A stretch of DNA of 64,000 nucleotides from Spirochaetota bacterium (GTDB lineage Bacteria; Spirochaetota; Spirochaetia; Treponematales; UBA12059). The notes beneath the pieces were generated by a model, which was not told where the DNA came from, did not search any database, and saw nothing but the letters and a program-made list of their open reading frames with translations. This document shows, one piece after another, positions 5,435 through 17,958 of this stretch (position 1 is the first letter of the stretch; each line of letters starts with the position of its first letter). The translations under genes and the position numbers were made by a program. The stretch is from NCBI GenBank assembly GCA_022703505.1, contig JAKLDN010000007.1:62001-126000 (forward strand), in the 5' to 3' direction.

Positions 5435-6758
5435 TTTCGCACAATTGGTCATTGAAAGAGGCGTCTCCATCTGGTTTAGTTAGGTTACCACACCGCAACA
5501 AACCAAAAAGGAGACGCCATGAGCGAAGGACGCCCACAAGGAAAGATTATAAGCATCGACGAGGGACTCGTGAAGAGCCAGCTCGGCGAAGTGGTGCGGG
5601 AGACGGTCGAGCAGACCTTGAACAATCTGCTGGACGCCGAAGCGGATGAACTGTGCGGTGCGAGACGGTATGAGCGCAGCGTAAGCCGCCTGGATACTCG
5701 GGCAGGGCATTATGAACGGAACCTGCATACCAAGGCGGGGATGGTGAAACTCAAGGTGCCTAAGTTGAGGACCATACCCTTCGAAAGCGCGATCATCGAC
5801 CGGTACCGTAGGCGGGAATGCTCGGTGGAAGAAGCGCTCATGGAGATGTACCTGGCTGGCGTATCCGTACGCCGCGTCGAGGACATCACCGAAGCCCTCT
5901 GGGGTACCCGGGTATCCGCGGGTGTCGTCTCTAAATTGAACCAGGAGCTGTACGACAAGATCGATACTTGGCGGAACCGGAAGATAGAAGGCTCGTTCCC
6001 GTACGTATACTTGGACGGAATCGTCCTAAAGCGAACCTGGGCGGATGAGATCCGCAACGTGTCCATCCTTGTGGCCTTTGGCGTAAATAACGATGGGTAC
6101 AGGGAAATCCTGGGTGCCTGCGAAGGGGCCAAGGAAGACAAATCCGGCTGGGGATCGTTTATCGCTTCTTTGAAGGACCGTGGGCTTACCGGGGTTCGGC
6201 TGTTCATCTCCGACAAGTGCATGGGACTTGTTGAATCCCTCGGTGAGTACTACCCCGAAGCCCAGTGGCAGCGCTGCTCGGTCCACTTCTATCGCAACGT
6301 GTTTACCAACGTTCCTTCAACGAAGGTGAAGGATGTAGCAGCAATGCTCAAGGCCATTCATGCCCAGGAAGACCGCGAAGCTTCGATCGAGAAGGCAGAA
6401 CAGGTCATAGAAAAGCTCAAGGTCATGAAGCTGTCCGTGGCGGCAAGGACCGTAGAAGAAGGCATACGGGAAACGCTTACCTACACGTCATTCCCACGAG
6501 AGCATTGGAGAAGCATCCGGACGAACAACCCAATGGAGCGCATCATGCGGGAGATTCGAAGGCGGACACGAGTCGTGGGAAACTTCCCGGACGGAAGATC
6601 CGCGCTGATGCTCGTAACAGCGCGTTTACGATACATCGCTGGCCGAGAATGGGGAACCAAACGGTACATGGACATGAATAGGTTGGCCGGTATGGCCAGC
6701 TACCAGGTGCTGGACGCGTAGCCCGCGATAACCAGATGAAGCGCTTAATTGTGCGAAA
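5435..6758 (+). mobile_element. IS256-family insertion sequence
   Basis: Bounded by inverted 12-mers, TTTCGCACAATT at 5435-5446 and its complement at 6747-6758. Inside each end there is a further imperfect match containing CATCTGGTT, giving ends of roughly 25-35 bases as in the IS256 family. It encodes one intact transposase. I could not find an 8-9 bp target duplication directly outside the ends, so one end may be misplaced or the flanks rearranged. Confidence 0.75.
5519..6721 (+). CDS. IS256 (Mutator-type) transposase
   Basis: A 400-residue transposase of usual family length, apparently intact. The DDE catalytic triad is visible: Asp166 in YLDGI, Asp232 in ISDKCMG, and Glu340 in NNPMERI. 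The C/DxxC-H segment RCSVHFYRN, typical of the family, follows the second Asp by about 25 residues. The N-terminal half (1-160) is the DNA-binding part. The ATG follows an AAGGAG at a normal distance. It moves the element by a copy-out/paste-in route in known relatives. GC-rich, unlike the AT-rich gene to its left, so it arrived separately from that gene. Confidence 0.93.
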   Translation: MSEGRPQGKIISIDEGLVKSQLGEVVRETVEQTLNNLLDAEADELCGARRYERSVSRLDTRAGHYERNLHTKAGMVKLKVPKLRTIPFESAIIDRYRRRECSVEEALMEMYLAGVSVRRVEDITEALWGTRVSAGVVSKLNQELYDKIDTWRNRKIEGSFPYVYLDGIVLKRTWADEIRNVSILVAFGVNNDGYREILGACEGAKEDKSGWGSFIASLKDRGLTGVRLFISDKCMGLVESLGEYYPEAQWQRCSVHFYRNVFTNVPSTKVKDVAAMLKAIHAQEDREASIEKAEQVIEKLKVMKLSVAARTVEEGIRETLTYTSFPREHWRSIRTNNPMERIMREIRRRTRVVGNFPDGRSALMLVTARLRYIAGREWGTKRYMDMNRLAGMASYQVLDA

Positions 6759-7050: not shown

Positions 7051-7107
7051 CCCCCCACCGTACAAAAAATGTGCCAATCCGCTTCCTGATAGCTCGGTGT
7101 AGTTCAG

Positions 7108-7134
7108 GACAGCTCAGGAGAATCCTGAGTTGTC
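7108..7134 (+). terminator. Hairpin in repeat copy 1
   Basis: GACAGCTCAGGA, loop GAA, TCCTGAGTTGTC (one G-U pair), followed by ATTTTC. The form is that of a Rho-independent terminator with a short T run. Confidence 0.45.
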
Positions 7135-7234
7135 ATTTTCCGAACTCTTGAAATAATTGGAATTACATGTATCCTGTAATCTAGAGTGCTCTGGAGGTAC
7201 CAGGAGCTACTCGGTGTAACCACGCCCCTGTGCC

Positions 7235-7276
7235 CTCATAATCCGTAGGTCGCTGGTTCAAGTCCAGCAGGGCCCA
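7235..7276 (+). pseudogene. tRNA(CAU) 3' half (anticodon loop to acceptor), copy 1
   Basis: Starts exactly at the anticodon loop CTCATAA, then TCCGTAGGTC, an intact T arm (GCTGG-TTCAAGT-CCAGC) and acceptor AGGGCCC-A. The matching 5' half is absent; the bases upstream do not pair with the acceptor or the anticodon stem. This is the segment that tyrosine integrases using tRNA genes usually duplicate. The anticodon fits tRNA-Met or tRNA-Ile2. Not a functional tRNA. Confidence 0.75.
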
Positions 7277-8656: not shown

Positions 8657-9652
8657 TCATGGCAAGCTGTGCGGGAAAAGGCTGGAACGCTTTTTCGTCC
8701 ACCCCAGACGGAGCATCGATGTCACGTCTCCCGTTATTCCGTTAACCGTACCGGTTCCGGTGTAATTCCAGAAAGCCCAGTTATGCCAGGCGGACGGGAA
8801 GGTCGGGACAATGGCCGTCGTATAATGGCGTATCATCAGCGGGTGCTCGGTGAAGGCGTCCGAGTTTCCCATGCTTCCCGACCAGAATAGGGTTCCCGTA
8901 GCGATGATCGGCTTGACGCCGATCTCCGCTTCGATCAAGCCCACGCAGAGCTGAAGCCAGTTAAGGCGATATGCCTCTGATGTCGCGCCTTCCGCCTCGC
9001 ACAGGATGAGAGGAGGAAGGTCGAAGCTTTTGTAATCTCCGGTAAAATCGGCGAGGAATAGATTGGTAGATTCTTCGACGTCTTTATTGAAGTCAACATA
9101 TATGTAGGCGCTTCGCAGGATACCCGCAGCCCGAGCACCCGCCCAGTTGGCGGAGAACTTGGCGTCAGGGAATTCGCCTTGACGGGCCCGGATGAATGCA
9201 TAATCGACCATATCGTTCCTGGCTGCGCTCCAATCAATGTCGCCCATAAAGGAATCTACTAAGACACCAATGCAACACTCGTCGATCAGAGGTGGGTCGA
9301 CGATTACAAGGTAGTCGGCCATCGTGCCGTCCTCGGCTATAACCAAGTACCTCAGGGGATAGGAGAAATCGTTCGGGGTTGAACCACTTAGTTGAAGGAC
9401 GCCGTCGACAGAAACGCCCACACCCGTCGTCTCGAAGATGGCGACAAGTCCAGTCATGTTTATTCGCGAGTCCAAATTGACGTGGATGACACGCTGCTCC
9501 TGATCTATAATGGCCGCCTCCCCTCCAACGAAGGAAAAAGCCGTTATAGACTTTGACGAAGCTTTAACAGGATCCTGAAGCGTCGTGCCGCAGGCCTCTA
9601 ACACCAGCGTAACCACTACGATTAATCCGATTGCCAGCCAAGACTTTCTCAT
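8657..9652 (-). CDS. Lipoprotein with GH25 lysozyme-like domain
   Basis: A 331-residue predicted lipoprotein. The start chosen is the ATG at 9652, because GGAG sits 6 bases upstream of it inside the longer alternative frame. A hydrophobic signal ends in the lipobox LEAC with Cys21. Residues about 35-125 form a DUF5018-like all-beta segment (ITAFSFVGG...). Residues about 130-325 follow the GH25 muramidase plan: IDWSAARND, FIRARQGE, KFSANWAGARAAGI, YIYVDF, and AFWNYTGTGTVNGITGDV at the end. The usual DIE catalytic strand reads LCEAEG, with Cys in place of the first Asp, and the opening GIDVS reads GVLVDS, so activity is uncertain. Confidence 0.75.
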   Translation of the reverse strand: MRKSWLAIGLIVVVTLVLEACGTTLQDPVKASSKSITAFSFVGGEAAIIDQEQRVIHVNLDSRINMTGLVAIFETTGVGVSVDGVLQLSGSTPNDFSYPLRYLVIAEDGTMADYLVIVDPPLIDECCIGVLVDSFMGDIDWSAARNDMVDYAFIRARQGEFPDAKFSANWAGARAAGILRSAYIYVDFNKDVEESTNLFLADFTGDYKSFDLPPLILCEAEGATSEAYRLNWLQLCVGLIEAEIGVKPIIATGTLFWSGSMGNSDAFTEHPLMIRHYTTAIVPTFPSAWHNWAFWNYTGTGTVNGITGDVTSMLRLGWTKKRSSLFPHSLP

Positions 9653-9710
9653 AATATTCTCCATGCTATCTTTAGATGATGAATCAGTATAGACCTCCCA
9701 GGAAAGAACG

Positions 9711-9943: not shown

Positions 9944-10038
9944 CCCCACTGTACAAAAAATTTGCCAAACCACTTTCAGATAGCTCGGTGTAGTTCAAGA
10001 CAGCTCAGGGTTGCCCCGAGCTGTCATTTCCCGAACTC
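9944..10038 (+). repeat. Partial third copy of the 226-bp repeat, without the tRNA part
   Basis: Matches the first 95 bases of the repeats at 7051 and 17733 (CCCCACTGTACAAAAAATTT, then GATAGCTCGGTGTAGTTCA) and stops near CCGAACTC. It keeps the hairpin: GACAGCTC (9999-10006) with GAGCTGTC (10018-10025) and GGG with CCC inside. It lies just beyond the stop of the minus-strand gene ending at 10056 and may terminate it. Confidence 0.75.
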
Positions 10039-10055: not shown

Positions 10056-10508
10056 TCAGTTGATACCTGAAAGCTGCTCCGCCGTGCTTCGGTCGAAACC
10101 GAGATTCATAAAACTTTGGATTGCCTCTTCCTGGTCTTCCCTGAAGAAGAACTCCGTTCCCGTGTAGGCTCTTACCTTGAGACGAACTAGGTCTGCACCC
10201 TCGCCCGATGTGATTCCGGCTAAACCCTGGGAGATCATGAGACGTTCAAGGAGTGCCCGTCCCCGTTTCCCGCTGGACAAGGCGGCTTCCCGGAGGGCCG
10301 TTTTGGCTCCGCCCGAACCTTCCAACGCAAAGCCGACGGCCTCCGCAAGAAAGCCCGTATGTTCCTCGGCGTACCTGCCCAGAGCGAACAGTCCTTCCTT
10401 TTCTACCGTCCCGGCCATTTCCGCCATCCTGTCCGCAAGACCAGCCAAGACGGCGCGTTCCTCCCTGGAACAGGAAGCCGCTCGTATCTCGGACACGTCA
10501 AAAAGCAT
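10056..10508 (-). CDS. Soluble MotA-like protein
   Basis: A 150-residue protein without membrane segments. Start at ATG 10508, which overlaps the end of the upstream gene by 11 bases. Residues about 32-62 (TVEKEGLFALGRYAEEHTGFL, then EAVGFALEG) follow the MotA cytoplasmic helix pattern (ARxEGLLALE...DxFLxxGLxLxVDG). Residues about 90-120 (LLERLMISQGLAGITSGEGA, then LKVRAYTG) follow the MotA C-terminal pattern (IxEGLLAIQxGENPxxxxxKLxAYL). The four transmembrane helices of MotA are missing. It is coupled to a DUF342 protein. I infer an interaction with the flagellar stator or switch; no family name is certain. Confidence 0.5.
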   Translation of the reverse strand: MLFDVSEIRAASCSREERAVLAGLADRMAEMAGTVEKEGLFALGRYAEEHTGFLAEAVGFALEGSGGAKTALREAALSSGKRGRALLERLMISQGLAGITSGEGADLVRLKVRAYTGTEFFFREDQEEAIQSFMNLGFDRSTAEQLSGIN

Positions 10509-11463
10509 CAGCGGCCTCCAGTCGCAGGAGAAACCCTTCTTCCCGTATCCTGACACACGTGAGAGCTTGACGTAGGGACATGCGGGACTGTCCCACCGAG
10601 ATTTCCGTGCGTTCGTGGATGGTTCCAGTTACGGTGATACCGGCTCCGGCGGAAACTGATGTGCACGTACATAGCGGTCCTCCGATCATCCCTGCGTGAA
10701 CCGAGCCACCCGCCCGGACCGAACCTCCTAGGATTACGCCGGGTCCGCCTTCGCAAATCAAGTCGCCGGTACATGTCAACTCGATCGGCTCGACTGTCGC
10801 ACCAAGGTGGACATCTCCACCGGATTCTAAGCGGGCCCGTTCGAGTGATATCGCATGGAAATCTCCCCCGCACCGGATAACAGCCCTGCCCTTGCCAAAT
10901 ACACAGCCTTCCACCTTGATGCTGCCTTCGGCCTCGATATGTGCGGCGTTAACCTGCCCGACGACCCGGATCGAGCCTGAGCTGTCCACGGACAGTTCAT
11001 CGCTCACATTGCCCTTGATGAGGAGATCCTGTCGGCTTGAGACCCGTGTGTCGATCCAATTGAGGCGGGATTCAATCCCGTCCGGCGATACCTCGAATAC
11101 GGGCGGACGACGGTCTCGACCCGGAAGCCTGGATCTTCCAAGGATTGCCGCTTCGCGTTCTTCACGCAGGGCGTCGGGGCCTTCGCCGTCCAGGACGAGC
11201 AGCAAGGCAGCAAGGCTAAAACGGTTAATATTATCGTGCGCGAAGGATCCTCCGCTCGAGGCCATGAGTATTTCGATAACTTCAACGATATCGGCCCGTG
11301 CGGCCCCTTTCCGGGCCATATCGAGGCCCAAGTTGAATATAGGAGGATACGCATGATTCGGGAGCATACTAAGGCCGGTAGTACCGCCGAGCCTGATCTG
11401 GGCCGCGATACGTGTGGCGGATTCAAAGAGGGTTTCGGCCTGGTTGTGCCAGTCAGAATCCAT
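10498..11463 (-). CDS. DUF342/FapA-like beta-helix protein with MotA-like N-terminus
   Basis: A 321-residue soluble protein. Residues about 140-300 are a right-handed beta-helix of the DUF342 (FapA) or polymer-forming type: short repeating strands with glycine turns, such as GSIRVVGQVNAAHIEAEGSI, GKGRAVIRCGGDFHAIS and GGSVRAGGSVHAGMIGG. Residues about 10-70 are helical (GGTTGLSMLPNHAYPPIFNL, then GLDMARKGA, IVEVIEIL) and loosely match the MotA cytoplasmic pattern found in the next gene. GAGG precedes the ATG. It is the first gene of a two-gene minus-strand operon. DUF342 proteins in other bacteria are linked to surface and motility functions, but their chemistry is unknown. Confidence 0.65.
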   Translation of the reverse strand: MDSDWHNQAETLFESATRIAAQIRLGGTTGLSMLPNHAYPPIFNLGLDMARKGAARADIVEVIEILMASSGGSFAHDNINRFSLAALLLVLDGEGPDALREEREAAILGRSRLPGRDRRPPVFEVSPDGIESRLNWIDTRVSSRQDLLIKGNVSDELSVDSSGSIRVVGQVNAAHIEAEGSIKVEGCVFGKGRAVIRCGGDFHAISLERARLESGGDVHLGATVEPIELTCTGDLICEGGPGVILGGSVRAGGSVHAGMIGGPLCTCTSVSAGAGITVTGTIHERTEISVGQSRMSLRQALTCVRIREEGFLLRLEAADAF

Positions 11464-11631
11464 GAACTACCTCGGTTTCATGCATAAAAGGATACACCGG
11501 CGGGGGCGGGAGTACAAATACCCTTTCTAATAAATTTCAAGAAATTGTGGATTTGGATGGAAGGTGTATAATCAATGCGAGGTTTGATCTCTAGAAGTAT
11601 ATACCGTACTTTTATTAAAGAAGGAGTATAT

Positions 11632-14148
11632 ATGTTAATCAAAACGATACTTATCCTGGTCATGGTTTTCTTATTCGATATTGAAGCTTTTCCAGAGGAA
11701 CAAAGTTATCCGATCACTGTACCTCCGGATAGCTCAGTCGTCGATGTATATGGCGCGAAGAAGAACTATGTTGCTGTTATAAAAAGCACGGCTGGCTATT
11801 CGATTTTTAGCAATTTCTTTCCTCGGCAGGGGCCTTATAAATGGATAGGCTCTGATAATTTGCGCCTTTCGCCCGACGGGGAAAAACTTGCTTTTTCTTA
11901 TGATGACTTTAGTGGGGCCAGCTTTATAAATGTTTCAGGCAAGGTCTACGGTCCTCTGACCGGATATATATGGAATGGTACTTTTTCCCCATCTGGTGAC
12001 GAGTTTGCCTTTGTTCGTACTACTGATTCAAAGAATTATCTTCATGTAGGTTCATCTGTTTTCGGTCCATACCTTGAAATAGGGTATGTAAGCTATCTCC
12101 AAGGAGTTGGTTTTATCGTACAAGCCAAGAATGAAAAAGGCTGGTATAGCTTCGAGGGCTCTCGTATGTGGGGCCCTTTTAGTGAGATGGGGGAATATTG
12201 GGTTCTTTCGGATGGGAAGACCCTTGTATATAGCGCAAAAAGGATAGACGACACCAAGTCGCCGACTCCTGTTTGGAACTTGTACACATCTAGTGGACGA
12301 TCTATCGCAGGGCCGTATCTGGAAATCGAACAACTTACCATAAGTCCGGATGGGAAGAACTATGCGTTCATGTTCAAGTCGGACGATGGATGGAGAATAC
12401 GTAGCCAATCCGTAACCGTCGGGCCGTTTCATAATATTTTTGGACGATTCGCTATAGCAAACAATGGCACTCTCGCTTATATCGTAGAGGGAAAAAATGG
12501 GAGGCGGACTCTTTATAGAAATGATACGGCAACCGGTATTTGGGGTGACTTATTTGATCCCTCAATTTCTTCCAATGGAAACCTTATAGCCGTGTATGTA
12601 TTCCGCGATGGACGTAAATGCGATTTGATCACGCAATTCGGCAAAGAAGAAGGATGCTTGTGGCCATACGAGAATGTTCTAGATGCACATATCTCTGTTG
12701 ATGGTACCCACCTTCTAATGGCCGTGAAGAATAAAGATAAAATACAAATAATAGTAAATAACTCCCTTCTCATGGATGTAAGCGACAGCTTAAAAGGGAC
12801 AGGATTTCGACCTGAAGATATTGATTTATATCCAAGCCCCAGGTGGGGTCGATTGGCTTTTATAGTAAAGGATCCGAGTTTTGTTAGGAGTAATGGTGAT
12901 GATGGTTATTGCTTACTATTTGATGGAGCCATGTGGGTTGGACAATTTGAGAGAATAATGAACCTAAATTTCGCTCCGGATAGTTCCAGTTTGAGTTATT
13001 CGGTCTCGGAGCGAGGTGTTATGGGTGCCCGGGAAAACCATTTAAGTAGAATCGATTCGACTCATAAACGCTGGTATACAGGACGTTCGTATTCAAGTGG
13101 TAGCGCCTATTTTGATGGGACTGGTTCGATCATCGTCCGATATGTCGATTCCATCGCTCCTAGTATTGGGGTGGCGACCGAGACATCGGGCAGCCTGTCT
13201 CTGAAGCTAGCCAGCCCTGGTACCCTGATCGTGGGTAACGTCACTATGACTGTATCTGCGGGGACTGTGCCGGTGAACGACTTGCCCGCCGGCCCCCACT
13301 GTGTAACAGTTCGATACGAGGACGGAAAGGTAGAAAGCTACGTTGGGATGGTATCTGCGGGTGAAGCGACCGCTCTGTCCTTCACCTATATACCGATGCC
13401 AAAAGCCACACGATCCCTAGATAAAAGCAAAAGCCTCCGGGGTGAGATCTTTGTTCAGGGTGGGACTTTCCGGATGGGCAGCGAGTCCGGTCGCCCAAAC
13501 GAGAAGCCTGTGCACTCTGTGACTGTCTCAAGCTTCTGGATGATGAAGACTGAGGTGACGCAGAAGGATTTTATTGCTTTGATGAGAATGAACCCTAGTT
13601 CTTTCGAGGGCGATGACCTTCCAGTGGAGAAAATAAGCTGGTACGACGCGATAGACTATGCGAATAGGTTAAGTCAGAAAGATGGATTAACACCAGCGTA
13701 CACCATAAGCGAGGATAAGGTTTCTTGGAACAAGGGTGCGGACGGCTGGCGGTTGCCCACAGAAGCGGAGTGGGAGTTTGCAGCCAGGGGAGGGGTATCG
13801 AGTCGAGGTTACACTTACGCCGGCGGGAATGAAGTAGACGCTGTGGCCAGGTACAATAAGAAGGGTGGACATGGTACCAAGCCCGTGGGTACGTATGGTC
13901 CCAACGAACTAGGATTGTACGACATGAGTGGGAACGTATCGGAGTGGTGTTGGGACTGGGGCTGGAGCTACAGTGATGCCGCTCAAATCGACCCCGTTGG
14001 CGCTGCCTCTGGGGATGTGCGTGTGACGCGTGGAGGTGGCTGGAAACAAGATGCGATTGGTGTACGTGTAGCCTTTCGAGGACAGAGAGCTCCCTTTGGG
14101 AGCGGCGAGGACCTGGGCTTCCGTCTCGTTCGTCCTCAGATTCGCTGA
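11632..14148 (+). CDS. Secreted beta-propeller / PEGA-like / SUMF1 domain protein
   Basis: An 838-residue exported protein. The start at 11632 is chosen for AAGGAG five bases upstream and because a signal peptide (MLIKTILILVMVFLFDIEAF) begins there. Residues about 25-510 are repeated beta-strand blocks with SPDGKxxA-type signatures, as in WD40/TolB-like propellers. Residues about 515-595 look like a PEGA domain. Residues about 605-838 are a formylglycine-generating-enzyme (SUMF1) fold: GGTFRMGSESGRPNEKPVH, WRLPTEAEWEFAARGG, MSGNVSEWCWDW and FRGQRAP. In most bacterial relatives this fold binds ligands or does other chemistry rather than making formylglycine. The 5' part is lower in GC than the downstream genes. 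Confidence 0.8.
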   Translation: MLIKTILILVMVFLFDIEAFPEEQSYPITVPPDSSVVDVYGAKKNYVAVIKSTAGYSIFSNFFPRQGPYKWIGSDNLRLSPDGEKLAFSYDDFSGASFINVSGKVYGPLTGYIWNGTFSPSGDEFAFVRTTDSKNYLHVGSSVFGPYLEIGYVSYLQGVGFIVQAKNEKGWYSFEGSRMWGPFSEMGEYWVLSDGKTLVYSAKRIDDTKSPTPVWNLYTSSGRSIAGPYLEIEQLTISPDGKNYAFMFKSDDGWRIRSQSVTVGPFHNIFGRFAIANNGTLAYIVEGKNGRRTLYRNDTATGIWGDLFDPSISSNGNLIAVYVFRDGRKCDLITQFGKEEGCLWPYENVLDAHISVDGTHLLMAVKNKDKIQIIVNNSLLMDVSDSLKGTGFRPEDIDLYPSPRWGRLAFIVKDPSFVRSNGDDGYCLLFDGAMWVGQFERIMNLNFAPDSSSLSYSVSERGVMGARENHLSRIDSTHKRWYTGRSYSSGSAYFDGTGSIIVRYVDSIAPSIGVATETSGSLSLKLASPGTLIVGNVTMTVSAGTVPVNDLPAGPHCVTVRYEDGKVESYVGMVSAGEATALSFTYIPMPKATRSLDKSKSLRGEIFVQGGTFRMGSESGRPNEKPVHSVTVSSFWMMKTEVTQKDFIALMRMNPSSFEGDDLPVEKISWYDAIDYANRLSQKDGLTPAYTISEDKVSWNKGADGWRLPTEAEWEFAARGGVSSRGYTYAGGNEVDAVARYNKKGGHGTKPVGTYGPNELGLYDMSGNVSEWCWDWGWSYSDAAQIDPVGAASGDVRVTRGGGWKQDAIGVRVAFRGQRAPFGSGEDLGFRLVRPQIR

Positions 14149-14158
14149 CCCGGGCTTG

Positions 14159-14337
14159 TCATCCATGACGCACTCGTCCGCAAGGACGGACGGGTCAAGC
14201 TCTGGCGCGGCAATTATACCGCGCTTGCCTACGCTCTCCACCGGAGGCGCGAAGCCGGAGGCGTGGCGGAAGAAAAGCGGGAAGGGGGGAGCGGGGGAAT
14301 ATATCCCCCCGCGGCCCGCGAGAGGAGGCTTGGATGA
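14159..14337 (+). pseudogene. Possible relic of a coding sequence (unrecognised)
   Basis: An open frame with no good start that reads VIHDALVRKDGRVKLWRGNY, then ALAYALHRRREA, and stops at TGA overlapping the next gene's ATG. It looks like the C-terminal tail of a larger protein, perhaps an ABC-F-type ATPase (GRVxxxxGNYT), but is too short to be sure. Confidence 0.25.
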
Positions 14338-16106
14338 GTCGAACTTTGATTCTCCATCGTAAGATCATCTCCTTCCTCCTCCTCCTCCTCTCCGCCCACC
14401 TCCCCTCCGTTGCCCAGGATGCGGCACGATCTGGTGAATTCCTCTTCCACCGCACCCTGAGCGGTTTTGAGACCTGGTTCGCCGAGTCTCCACGGGGAGA
14501 CTTGGCCGTCGCGGGGCTGGCCGAACAGGGACCGGTAGTACTCCTCGAGCGGTCCACGGGCCTGGTGCTCCGGGAGCTCTCCCCGAACGCCCAGGCTTTC
14601 GGCGCGGCCTTCAGCGCCGACCAGGACCTGGTGTTCGTCACGGAGCGGTATATCCTGAAGGTGTACGAAGTCCGGACAGGGCGAGTCCGCTCCGTGCACA
14701 GGGTCGAGATGGAGGGCCCCTATCTCGTTGTTGCTGGACGCGTTCTCTTTCTTCGAGGCCGGGTCGACGGTTCAGAAGGCCTGTTCCGCCTGGACCCGGG
14801 CGGCCCCGGCACCGGGGAGGACGGGACCCTTACGCGCGTCCCGGCCCTGCCGCCCGGCATCGTCCTGGGCGGGACCCGGGCAGCGGCCGCGGATAAAGAC
14901 CCGCTTCCCTCGGATCTCCGAAAGACCTTTTCCCGGGTTTTTCCGCCCCGTGTCGTCGGACGGCTTTCCGCGGCGGTCCTGGCCGAGGGCGCCGTGGTCC
15001 TGCTCGATCTGAGAACCGGCCGTCCCGGTCGGATCCTCGACCTCGACGGTTCCGAGCCCAAGCTCTTCGAGACGGACTACTTCGGGCGGATCGGCGCCGC
15101 GTACGCTCCCAGGGGCTCCGATCACTACCTCCACCTGTGGCACCTGGACTCCGCGACCGCCCCCGCAGTTCAACGCCCTGATAATCGCTACCAGGTGCCT
15201 CTGCATCCCGTAAGGCTGGCCATTTCGAACTCCGGCACGGAGGCCTGGATCAGCGGGTTCCGGGGCGGCCGGGATATCGGCGGCGGGAGGATTATCGAGA
15301 CTGTTAGCGCCGCGGGCTTCCTGGACCTGAAGACCGGCTCCTGGAAAGAATCCGCCAAGGATGAAGCTCCGTCCTGGGCTGTGGAGAAAACCAGCCTCGG
15401 AGTCGAAGAGCTTGTACAGCCCGGCCGCCTCCGGTATCGAATGCTCGATCACGGCGTTGTAGAGGCGCGGGATCCAAAAACCGGTGACCCCTTGGTCCAC
15501 CTGAGCGTCGATGGCCGGGGCGAGTGGGCGGCCTTCGCCCCCGACGGCCGCTGGGACGCCAGCCCCGGCGCGCTGGGAAGCCTCCTCTACAGGTCCGACG
15601 GCCTGCGCACCTGGGCCCCTGATCCGGCGAGAGACGGGGGTTTCACGCCGGGGCTCGTACAGGCGCTGGCCGAAGCTGCGGAGAGTATCCATCTTTCCGT
15701 AAACGTTGACCGGGGTGAGGGCGGCGTGTACCGGATAGGCGAAGAAATTACTATCCTGGTCTCGGTGGACCGGCCGGTCTGGCTCCGGCTCTACTACATC
15801 CAGGAGGACGGTACGGCCAAATTGATCTGGCCGAGCGACCACGTCCGGAAACAATGGATACCTGCCGGTACTGATCAACGTTTTCCCCCTGTGGACGATT
15901 GGTATTCCTTTAAGCTGACACCTCCCCTCGGCAGGGAGTCCATCCTGGCCTTCGCCTCCACCCGGCCCTTCGAGCCCGGGCATCCCGGTCTTCCGGACAC
16001 GGGGAAACAGGATCAGGGATCTTCAGTACCCCGCTATATTACGGAGCCGGAATCCTGGCCACCCGCCTCGGCGTCCGCCCGGACGACCTTCACGGTGACG
16101 GAATGA
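14334..16106 (+). CDS. Exported WD40-like protein with C-terminal DUF4384 domain
   Basis: A 590-residue protein with an N-terminal signal (MSRTLILHRKIISFLLLLLS, cleavage after ASVAQ-like PSVAQ). Residues about 35-420 are beta-rich repeats in the style of WD40/propeller proteins (FAPDGRWDASPG near 400). Residues about 455-550 match DUF4384: VYRIGEEITILVSVDRPVWL, then LYYIQEDGTAKLIWPSD and a closing strand ending in FASTRPFE. DUF4384 domains often accompany caspase-like peptidases or act as outer cell-surface sensor modules; no caspase is present here. AGGAGG lies five bases before the ATG. Very GC-rich, in contrast to the preceding SUMF1 gene, so the segment is mosaic. Likely co-transcribed with the next gene. 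Confidence 0.7.
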   Translation: MSRTLILHRKIISFLLLLLSAHLPSVAQDAARSGEFLFHRTLSGFETWFAESPRGDLAVAGLAEQGPVVLLERSTGLVLRELSPNAQAFGAAFSADQDLVFVTERYILKVYEVRTGRVRSVHRVEMEGPYLVVAGRVLFLRGRVDGSEGLFRLDPGGPGTGEDGTLTRVPALPPGIVLGGTRAAAADKDPLPSDLRKTFSRVFPPRVVGRLSAAVLAEGAVVLLDLRTGRPGRILDLDGSEPKLFETDYFGRIGAAYAPRGSDHYLHLWHLDSATAPAVQRPDNRYQVPLHPVRLAISNSGTEAWISGFRGGRDIGGGRIIETVSAAGFLDLKTGSWKESAKDEAPSWAVEKTSLGVEELVQPGRLRYRMLDHGVVEARDPKTGDPLVHLSVDGRGEWAAFAPDGRWDASPGALGSLLYRSDGLRTWAPDPARDGGFTPGLVQALAEAAESIHLSVNVDRGEGGVYRIGEEITILVSVDRPVWLRLYYIQEDGTAKLIWPSDHVRKQWIPAGTDQRFPPVDDWYSFKLTPPLGRESILAFASTRPFEPGHPGLPDTGKQDQGSSVPRYITEPESWPPASASARTTFTVTE

Positions 16107-16146
16107 CCTGCAACGAGTACGTTCTCGGAAGGAATAGGAGGAACGC

Positions 16147-17700
16147 ATGGTCTTGAGCCCGGAAGAGATCCGAGCCGTCCCCTTCGCCTCCGCCCCCCTC
16201 CCGGTCCTCTTGAAGCCCCTGGGGGCGCTGAAGTCCGAGGCCGAACGAAGCGGACTCCTGGTTATCGAAGACCTCGCCCGTGTCATCGACCATCCCGTGC
16301 TCGGAAATCTTCTTTCCCTGGCCGTCGACGGTATGTCCCCGGGCGACCTGGCGGCCTTCGGACTCGGGGCGGCGGTCGGGAAGGATTCCGGGGAGGCGAC
16401 CCGGATCCTCCTGTTCACCTTCTTCGCCGTGTTGCTCCAAACCGCCTCGCGGGACACGGAATCTGAACTCCGGAGCTTCCTGGAGCGGAAATCTCCCTGT
16501 CGTTCCATCGCGGACGCCCTGATCCGGGGAACCATGCCCCTCCACTACGAACGCCTCCTGGGCGGAAAACCGGGTTTACGGGAGATTGTTGAAGGAGCCG
16601 GAGCATCCGACGCCCACAGCCTCTACATCGGGGGGCTTCTGTCCCTGGGGCTCCCGGACCTGGGCGAAGCGGTGGATCTCCTGGACCGGTTTCGATCCGC
16701 CTACGGCCGGATCCATCCCTTCCAGTGGGCCTTCCAGGATTACCTTTCGACCCTCGAAGTGGAGAAGGGCGGGACGGAAGGACTGCTTGGAGTGCTCCGT
16801 TTCGGTTTTCTTGCCGGTCCCGCAATGTCGGAATCCTTCCACCTTCTATCCCGGGTCCGGGACACGGGACGGGCGGGTCCCTTCACGAACTTCCTACTCG
16901 GCATGCTCCACCTCTACCGGGAGGAGTCGGTGCCCTACGATGCGGAGAAAGCCTTCGCCTTGGTTTTAGATTCCGCAGACCAGGGCTCGGCCCTGGGAGC
17001 TGAATGGAAGGCTGGGTTCCTGGGATCCCGGCAAACCCCCGCCTTTCCCGGAAACGCCGTCCCGCGCTCCATTCGGGGCACCGAGGTCTTTTCCGCTGGG
17101 GAGATTGATCTGCTCCTCGCGGCCTTCGGAGATCCCGGGGCCGGGGAAAACCCGGCCGTCCCCGCATGGTACGATCCGGAAAGAGCGGCGGAAGATCTCC
17201 TGGGACCGTCTCCGGGCTGGAGCGGCCTGTGTCTCCGGGCCCGCGCCGTCCGGGCCGCCGCTGCCGGTACCACCGACGAAGCCTGGGGCTTCGTCCGGCG
17301 CTGTGCCGTCCTCGGGGAGTCCTGGGCGGTCGCCACCGTGGTCGGCGCATGGAGCGGTTCGACCCTGGGCCTCTTCGCGCCCAAGGAGGACGGTTTGTCC
17401 GGCGGGCTCGTGATTCCCTCCGGCCTATCCGCCTCGAGCCTGGTCAAAGCGATCCGCGGGGACCGCCGCTCCCGCCCTATCGTGGTCCTCGCGGCCCGGC
17501 ATCCTCTCCATCGGACGGACGCGGCCGCCCTCGCCGAGCGTCTGGAGGGCGGCGGCGCGCCCCGGGATCCTGAACTCCAAACCCTGCTGCGTACGGAGTT
17601 GGACAAGGCAGAAGCGGCGGATCGGAATGCCCCGGGCGCAATGACCCAGGCGGAGATCGACGAACTGCTGGGGAACACTCCCCGAGTGGAATCACAGTAG
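16147..17700 (+). CDS. Protein with MotA-like segment and FliM-like C-terminal peptide
   Basis: A 517-residue soluble protein, no signal peptide. Residues about 30-70 (EAERSGLLVIEDLARVIDHP, then LLSLAVDGMSPGDL) match the MotA cytoplasmic helix pattern AxRxGLLxLED...IxxPxLxxxLxLxVDGxxP closely. The middle contains Sel1/TPR-like helical repeats (LLGMLHLYREESVPYDAEKA, typical of Sel1). The last 15 residues, AMTQAEIDELLGNTP, match the EIDALL peptide by which FliM binds phosphorylated CheY, here at the C-terminus instead of the N-terminus. AGGAGG precedes the ATG, 40 bases after the DUF4384 gene. I infer contact with the flagellar switch or CheY; the function is not known. Confidence 0.5.
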   Translation: MVLSPEEIRAVPFASAPLPVLLKPLGALKSEAERSGLLVIEDLARVIDHPVLGNLLSLAVDGMSPGDLAAFGLGAAVGKDSGEATRILLFTFFAVLLQTASRDTESELRSFLERKSPCRSIADALIRGTMPLHYERLLGGKPGLREIVEGAGASDAHSLYIGGLLSLGLPDLGEAVDLLDRFRSAYGRIHPFQWAFQDYLSTLEVEKGGTEGLLGVLRFGFLAGPAMSESFHLLSRVRDTGRAGPFTNFLLGMLHLYREESVPYDAEKAFALVLDSADQGSALGAEWKAGFLGSRQTPAFPGNAVPRSIRGTEVFSAGEIDLLLAAFGDPGAGENPAVPAWYDPERAAEDLLGPSPGWSGLCLRARAVRAAAAGTTDEAWGFVRRCAVLGESWAVATVVGAWSGSTLGLFAPKEDGLSGGLVIPSGLSASSLVKAIRGDRRSRPIVVLAARHPLHRTDAAALAERLEGGGAPRDPELQTLLRTELDKAEAADRNAPGAMTQAEIDELLGNTPRVESQ

Positions 17701-17789
17701 CTCAGGCGAGATAGGGAGAGTCCAGGACGATTCCCCCCACTGTACAAAAAATGTGCCAAACCAATTCCAGATAGCTCGGTGTAGTTCAG

Positions 17790-17816
17790 GACAGCTCAGG
17801 AGAATCCTGAGCTGTC
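17790..17816 (+). terminator. Hairpin in repeat copy 2
   Basis: GACAGCTCAGGA, loop GAA, TCCTGAGCTGTC, a perfect 12-bp stem followed by ATTTTCTT. It lies 90 bases after the stop of the 517-residue gene and probably ends that transcript. Confidence 0.55.
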
Positions 17817-17916
17817 ATTTTCTTAACTCTTGAAATAGTCAGAATTACATGTATCCTGTAGTCTAGAGTACTCTGGAGGTACCAAGAGCTACTCGGTGTA
17901 ACCACGCCCCTTAGCC

Positions 17917-17958
17917 CTCATAATCCGTAGGTCGCTGGTTCAAGTCCAGCAGGGCCCA
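17917..17958 (+). pseudogene. tRNA(CAU) 3' half, copy 2
   Basis: Identical to the copy at 7235-7276: anticodon loop CTCATAA, intact T arm and acceptor AGGGCCC-A, with no matching 5' half. Not functional as a tRNA. Confidence 0.75.

Follow-up and report, generated by a model that had tools for sequence, protein, structure and literature searches.

Soluble MotA-like proteins in a repeat-bounded segment of a spirochaete genome, and their relatives in an apparently undescribed family

Genes and repeats of the segment

The window, that is the whole 64-kb stretch of DNA analysed here, comes from a flagellated spirochaete (genome of 3.66 Mb, 98.5% complete) in which MotA, FliM and an FlhA-type gene (FHIPEP) were all found. 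Part of it is bounded by direct repeats and contains five genes, as listed below.

9944..10038, no strand: direct repeat that bounds the segment on the left
10056..10508, minus strand: P0001, sMotA, 150 aa from ATG, with both MotA cytoplasmic pieces
10498..11463, minus strand: P0002, DUF342/FapA beta-solenoid protein, 321 aa (Pfam FapA/DUF342, PF03961, E = 1e-27)
11575..14148, plus strand: 857-aa protein that combines WD40-like repeats with an FGE-sulfatase domain (Pfam FGE-sulfatase 2e-54, PD40 1e-6)
14334..16106, plus strand: 590-aa protein with DUF4384 and, at its N-terminus, a signal-like segment (Pfam DUF4384 3e-18)
16147..17700, plus strand: P0003, 517 aa, with a MotA-like N-terminus, a weak Sel1-like stretch and a FliM-like C-terminal peptide
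17641..17670, plus strand: MTQAEIDELL peptide at the C-terminus of P0003, from a pattern search of the source genome
17733..17958, no strand: direct repeat, right boundary of the segment, including the tRNA-like 3' half CTCATAATCC...GGTTCAAGTCC...GGGCCC

The start of P0001 is overlapped by P0002 over 11 nt, and the two genes therefore probably form one transcription unit. The 857-aa WD40-like/FGE-sulfatase gene sits between both sMotA units of the segment, while the 590-aa DUF4384 gene ends 40 nt upstream of P0003, with which it possibly shares a transcript. In the searches described below, P0001 was represented by positions 10505-10056, which is one residue short.

As the preliminary description had stated, the segment is bounded by repeats, with a repeat of about 98 bp flanking it at 9944 and 17733. 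This repeat has exactly three copies in the genome, at 7051, 9944 and 17733. The outer copies (7051 and 17733) run on into a piece resembling the 3' half of a tRNA with CAU anticodon, so that the tRNA-like half of the right boundary is also present at 7051-7276. Such fragments at the outer repeats would fit the ends of an integrated element. No intact tRNA was detected in the 64-kb window, and the repeats gave no Rfam match. A MotB-like ORF follows the real motA gene elsewhere in the genome; the Pfam scan revealed no MotB among the proteins of the segment and no FliG_C in any of the six window proteins scanned. P0001 and P0003 were not found in the two same-genus genomes searched.

MotA likeness of P0001, P0003 and P0002

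P0001, P0002 and P0003 had been described as sharing the cytoplasmic pattern of the stator protein MotA without its membrane helices. A profile, hereafter the soluble-MotA HMM, was built from 19 small proteins with joined cytoplasmic pieces, none of the window trio being included. It placed P0001, P0003 and P0002 at ranks 1, 2 and 3 of the 49 ORFs of the window, and it found the real MotA in two pieces (7e-29), skipping the TM3-TM4 insert. A family profile in which P0001 was a training row gave five hits in the whole genome at E<10, namely P0001, the real MotA in two pieces, P0003 (7e-4) and P0002 (0.27). None of the three proteins has a membrane helix, as against the four of MotA, and their best 19-residue hydropathy means were 0.83 (P0001), 1.24 (P0002) and 1.36 (P0003), compared with 2.21 for MotA of the same genome. 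The membrane-free MotA pattern of the trio was confirmed, weakly in the case of P0002.

General domain libraries gave a different picture. Pfam returned no MotA match in P0001, P0002 or P0003 and nothing useful on 21 sMotA members; PF01618 (MotA_ExbB) misses the family and found only MotA and an ExbB-like gene in the source genome. The sole library hint for the trio was that of NCBIfam MotA on P0003 (E = 0.075). The expected profile match to MotA was obtained with the soluble-MotA HMM for P0001 and, over one piece, for P0003, whereas Pfam gave none in any of the three proteins.

The evidence is strongest for P0001, which matched the soluble-MotA HMM over both cytoplasmic pieces with E = 2e-10 and 35 bits, a score reached by none of 20,000 shuffled sequences. 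Its AF2 model (pLDDT 84) aligned with the cytoplasmic domains of MotA/PomA at Z 9.2-12.3 (1.9 Å over 97 residues), the next fold reaching Z 4.4. A profile of P0001 and 18 sMotA proteins, compared with the PDB, retrieved MotA/PomA chains only (best 1.2e-13; next unrelated entry 0.36). Foldseek E-values were poor for this model and for that of the A2-type partner presented below, probably due to the large membrane insert in MotA, and the question was resolved by a second structure aligner. The MotA-domain identity of P0001 is as good as certain, and the earlier assignment of both cytoplasmic pieces to a membrane-free 150-residue protein holds. In E. coli MotA, R90 and E98 are the residues that touch FliG (PMC12505986). 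In P0001 the former is replaced by E and the latter by G. With neither contact residue left, an ordinary grip on FliG is improbable for this protein.

P0003 is likely MotA-like as well, over residues ~17-73, which correspond to the first piece only (E = 8e-4; 14 bits with filters off; 0 of 20,000 shuffles as good). It bears E at both the R90 and E98 sites, R90 thus being lost, and its Sel1-like stretch reached E = 0.05 with Pfam Sel1. For P0002, the likeness covers the N-terminal ~110 residues, with 6.7 bits (filters off) and 11 of 20,000 shuffles scoring as well; it is weak, would not stand alone and is probable mainly from the position of the gene. The hhalign P values were 7e-4 for P0003 and 0.0016 for P0002, against 4e-16 for the real MotA. 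The DUF342 protein had correctly been named the weaker match, in keeping with its 6.7 bits and its genome-wide E value, whereas the 517-residue protein, put forward as a strong one, is surpassed by P0001 (35 versus 14 bits). BLAST searches with P0003 against 149 genomes from the order and against plasmids returned no full-length relative. P0001 and P0003 have both diverged from all other sequences.

P0003 does end, as noted earlier, in the FliM-like MTQAEIDELL, which contains a motif of the EIDALL type. In FliM/FliY, CheY-P binds at EIDALL (PMC9126983). The genome encodes the pattern QxEIDxLL at four places, namely the N-termini of FliM and FliY/FliN, the C-terminus of P0003 and one unrelated oxidoreductase-like enzyme; the reversed control pattern does not occur, and the usual number across genomes of the order is two. 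A second look-alike, VFSAGEIDLLL, is located near residue 317 of P0003. Pfam gave no FliM match in P0003, and its EIDELL motif is C-terminal, not N-terminal before a FliM middle domain. Judging from this motif, P0003 may bind CheY via its tail.

Chance, a MotA pseudogene and a derivation from ExbB/TolQ were considered for these sequences and set aside, as the best matches are flagellar MotA/PomA with ExbB far down (Z 5.5), and the two cytoplasmic pieces are cleanly joined in many species.

The sMotA family and its FliG-like partners

The trio appears to consist of diverged members of an apparently undescribed, phylum-wide spirochaete family, termed here sMotA. The BLAST search with P0003 led to P0004, a 407-aa protein from a genome of the same taxonomic family, in which a MotA cytoplasmic domain is joined to a FliG-like C-terminal part. 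With the first 121 residues of P0004 as query, many small proteins were recovered in which both MotA cytoplasmic pieces are directly joined. A further match of P0003 (locus L005 of genome G101) was dropped because the region has no convincing sMotA gene.

The family takes several forms. Stand-alone sMotA proteins have 120-200 aa, and single-chain fusions of sMotA with FliG_C (~220-410 aa) are spread over several families that belong to other orders and classes. One of these fusions (L108) matches both FliG (4e-37) and MotA (1e-11) structures, and another (L114) has, by eye, the reversed domain order. Larger sMotA proteins carry LRR, Sel1, ankyrin or TPR repeats, some of them with FliG_C too. 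At one locus (L058), successive genes encode sMotA, a homologue of FliM and a fusion of FliN-FliN-FliG type. Plasmid pTS2 of Treponema saccharophilum, which belongs to the same order, encodes three sMotA proteins with EIDALL-like C-terminal tails (WP_002704070.1, WP_002704066.1 and WP_141607231.1, all annotated as hypothetical), and their genes adjoin BspA-type LRR genes. Since these three proteins share the tail type, the combination of sMotA with a FliM-like tail in P0003 is not a one-off. R90 and E98 are kept in many other sMotA proteins, and most fusions outside the family f4 described next keep the K264 or R281 positions of FliG together with R90/E98, with both partners of the established salt bridges intact. 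Association with FliG_C is common in the sMotA family; it is not universal, and it is not seen in the six window proteins scanned.

One family of spirochaetes (f4) has a fixed gene pair made of sMotA and a partner, A2, of ~370-410 aa. Pfam detected FliG_C in 10/10 A2 members, and in the A2 model (pLDDT 81) residues 21-140 matched MotA (Z 13.2) while residues 153-356 matched FliG (Z about 12-13). Of the 30 f4 genomes, 29 carry the partner gene, and sMotA adjoins it at every f4 locus read. Neither FliM nor FHIPEP (FlhA) was detected in 19 of the 30 genomes, several of these 19 being at least 93% complete, and 18 of the 19 keep the partner gene. Within the flagellum-less lineages, dN/dS values of 0.05-0.11 indicated purifying selection. 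Because the pair persists without flagella under such selection, a role outside the motor is required in these lineages. The preliminary description had named homologues in non-flagellated bacteria as evidence against its motor reading, and these genomes without FliM and FHIPEP supply them. Non-flagellated rod-shaped spirochaetes, not necessarily of f4, are known among cultured species (PMC6052044).

E98 was kept in 12/12 sMotA genes of flagellated f4 genomes and in 0/10 of the tested flagellum-less ones; it is also lost in three further relatives of untested flagellar status. The Fisher test gave p about 2e-7 with 13 losses, three of them from genomes not scored for flagella, and it is not phylogenetically independent, as a single split of the tree separates flagellated from flagellum-less members and the pattern thus amounts to one event. 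This pattern fits a contact with flagellar FliG in the flagellated members. In the FliG-like partner of f4, K264 of FliG is replaced, so any contact between sMotA and its partner must differ from that of the motor.

A possible docking module and its relation to known systems

FliG_C is the natural and well-known partner of the MotA cytoplasmic domain. Taken together, the occurrence of sMotA and FliG_C as fused domains or as neighbouring genes, along with FliM, FliN and CheY-binding-like peptides, suggests that the contact between stator and rotor serves these proteins in the cytosol as a docking module, a reading to which we give about an even chance. The sMotA protein would be the cytoplasmic domain of MotA with its membrane helices removed, and the module would join other parts, such as FapA, LRR, Sel1, FliN and CheY-binding-like EIDALL tails. 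Where flagella are present and R90/E98 are kept, it would probably make contact with FliG of the motor as well; where flagella have been lost, sMotA and its partner would bind each other and serve another role. Domain fusion hints at such binding without being proof of it. A contact with the motor is plausible for relatives that keep both R90 and E98. A strong motor effect of the window trio is unlikely, because of the lost contact residues and the location in an island. More broadly, soluble sMotA and FliG_C could form a two-part system with a flagellum-independent job in the cell, retained in the core genome once flagella are lost and spreading with varied domains via islands and plasmids; we consider this broader proposal about as likely as not. 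The family probably does more than tune swimming, since it is kept even by relatives without flagella. Within the window itself, the lack of FliG_C in the segment and the failure to find the trio in the two same-genus genomes searched count against docking, as do the divergence of P0001 and P0003, the weak match of P0002 and, in f4, the replaced K264 of the partner.

The function first proposed for the trio was that of a motor brake or clutch, in which soluble torque helices would sit on FliG, so that the motor slows or is uncoupled, and binding of CheY-P to the EIDELL tail would be the switch. The flagellated source genome, the retention of E98 along with flagella and the likeness of the tail to the CheY-P site of FliM/FliY speak for it. 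However, the E98 pattern comes down to one tree split, no flagellar operon lies beside the sMotA loci read, P0001 has neither contact residue and P0003 lacks R90. As the gene pair is kept under selection in flagellum-less genomes, braking cannot be the family's only role, and as an explanation it is rather unlikely. The lost contact residues, the missing counterparts of P0001 and P0003 in the two same-genus genomes searched and the bounding repeats, unique to the island and with tRNA-like 3' fragments, would also suit island genes that are accessory or in decay, the trio being a degenerate copy that was gained by horizontal transfer and does little in the strain. This we consider unlikely, given that all three frames are open, that the P0002/P0001 overlap is operon-like and that relatives elsewhere are under strong purifying selection.

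Another possibility is that sMotA is a generic protein-binding scaffold, a sensing or interbacterial adaptor in mobile LRR, Sel1 and ankyrin proteins with no tie to flagella or CheY. It would account for the LRR, Sel1, ankyrin and TPR repeats and for the BspA-type LRR neighbours on the plasmid, but sMotA is linked time and again with FliG_C, FliM, FliN and EIDALL motifs, which speaks for partners from the flagellar switch and makes the scaffold improbable. Chance resemblance among helical proteins might be invoked for P0002, which is weak when taken alone; it is refuted for P0001, and for the trio it is very hard to reconcile with the shuffling results of P0001 and P0003, the top three ranks in the window and the fold match.

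If the docking reading is correct, the MotA-FliG contact, among the best studied in biology, has been lifted from a membrane motor and reused. Soluble stator-rotor pairs would then be available for studies of the torque contact, and they would offer a natural experiment on which residues of the interface count only in the presence of a motor. A new class would emerge among the spirochaete proteins that currently carry hypothetical annotations, and matches to FliG_C or MotA would not by themselves prove motility. The preliminary description knew of no system with this set of proteins, and we likewise found no description of soluble or MotA-like proteins with FliG-like partners or FliG fusions in open-access full text, where one could be missed.

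Compared with the MotA/PomA stator (NCBIfam MotA; PF01618), sMotA is alike in cytoplasmic sequence and fold, in both pieces for P0001. It differs in having no membrane helices, hence no ion channel, and the Pfam model MotA_ExbB does not match it; the R90/E98 motif of the stator is present in many members and lost in P0001. A survey of MotAB evolution (mBio 2025, PMC12505986) covers MotA homologues including those of spirochaetes and gives the contacts as R90/D288-D289 and E98/R281, the terms soluble, truncated and fusion being absent from its main text. With FapA/DUF342 (PF03961), P0002 has the beta-solenoid domain in common, its N-terminus being weakly sMotA-like. The Borrelia fapA gene lies in a flagellar operon (PMC11607428), whereas P0002 does not. 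The tails of P0003 and of the treponeme sMotA proteins are similar to the CheY-binding peptide of FliM/FliY (EIDALL) but C-terminal, with CheY binding putative. Borrelia FliG1/FliG2 likewise illustrate a spirochaete duplication of rotor parts, and FliG1 acts in torque generation according to a review (PMC7225975) in which we saw no fusion to a stator domain mentioned. Unlike in FliG, the FliG_C domain of the fusions is joined to sMotA, usually without the FliG N domain, and it is kept without flagella in f4 and missing from the window segment. The FliG C-terminal domain itself (PF01706) is present in the sMotA partners and fusions, and most of the fusions keep its stator-facing charges.

Direct repeats and cassettes in the window

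The region is divided into two cassettes by three island-specific direct repeats, which contain a short palindrome (GACAGCTCAGG...CCTGAGCTGTC):

7051-7276: direct repeat (outer), with a tRNA-like 3' half
8657-9664: GH25 lysozyme-like protein, in the left cassette
9944-10038: direct repeat
17733-17958: direct repeat (outer), with a tRNA-like 3' half

An intact 400-aa ORF (5519-6721), transposase-like by eye, lies directly outside the left repeat.

sMotA genes on a plasmid and beside PcfJ

Plasmid pTS2 of Treponema saccharophilum (NZ_AP025290.1, 178000-190000; loci L138 and L139) carries a cluster of genes encoding sMotA and EIDxLL-bearing proteins, interspersed with BspA-type LRR genes. The N-terminal half of one of these sMotA proteins had no Pfam match. 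At locus L069 (genome G130, C3, 1932-5712), a PcfJ-domain protein is flanked by two FliG_C proteins and one sMotA.

Additional FliM homologues and switch-like gene sets

Within the window's own family, FliM-domain proteins additional to the normal FliM occur in open frames of 620-783 codons (genomes G008 C1:43050, G054 C5:29943, G019 C126:602 and G004 C11:225095, among others), possibly FliM joined to other parts. Locus L058 (genome G065, C42, 6122-9293) bears three consecutive genes: one for sMotA, one for a homologue of FliM and one for a FliN-FliN-FliG fusion. MCP-like and LuxR-like genes, both assigned by eye, are found nearby. The trio itself looks like a second, membrane-free switch complex.
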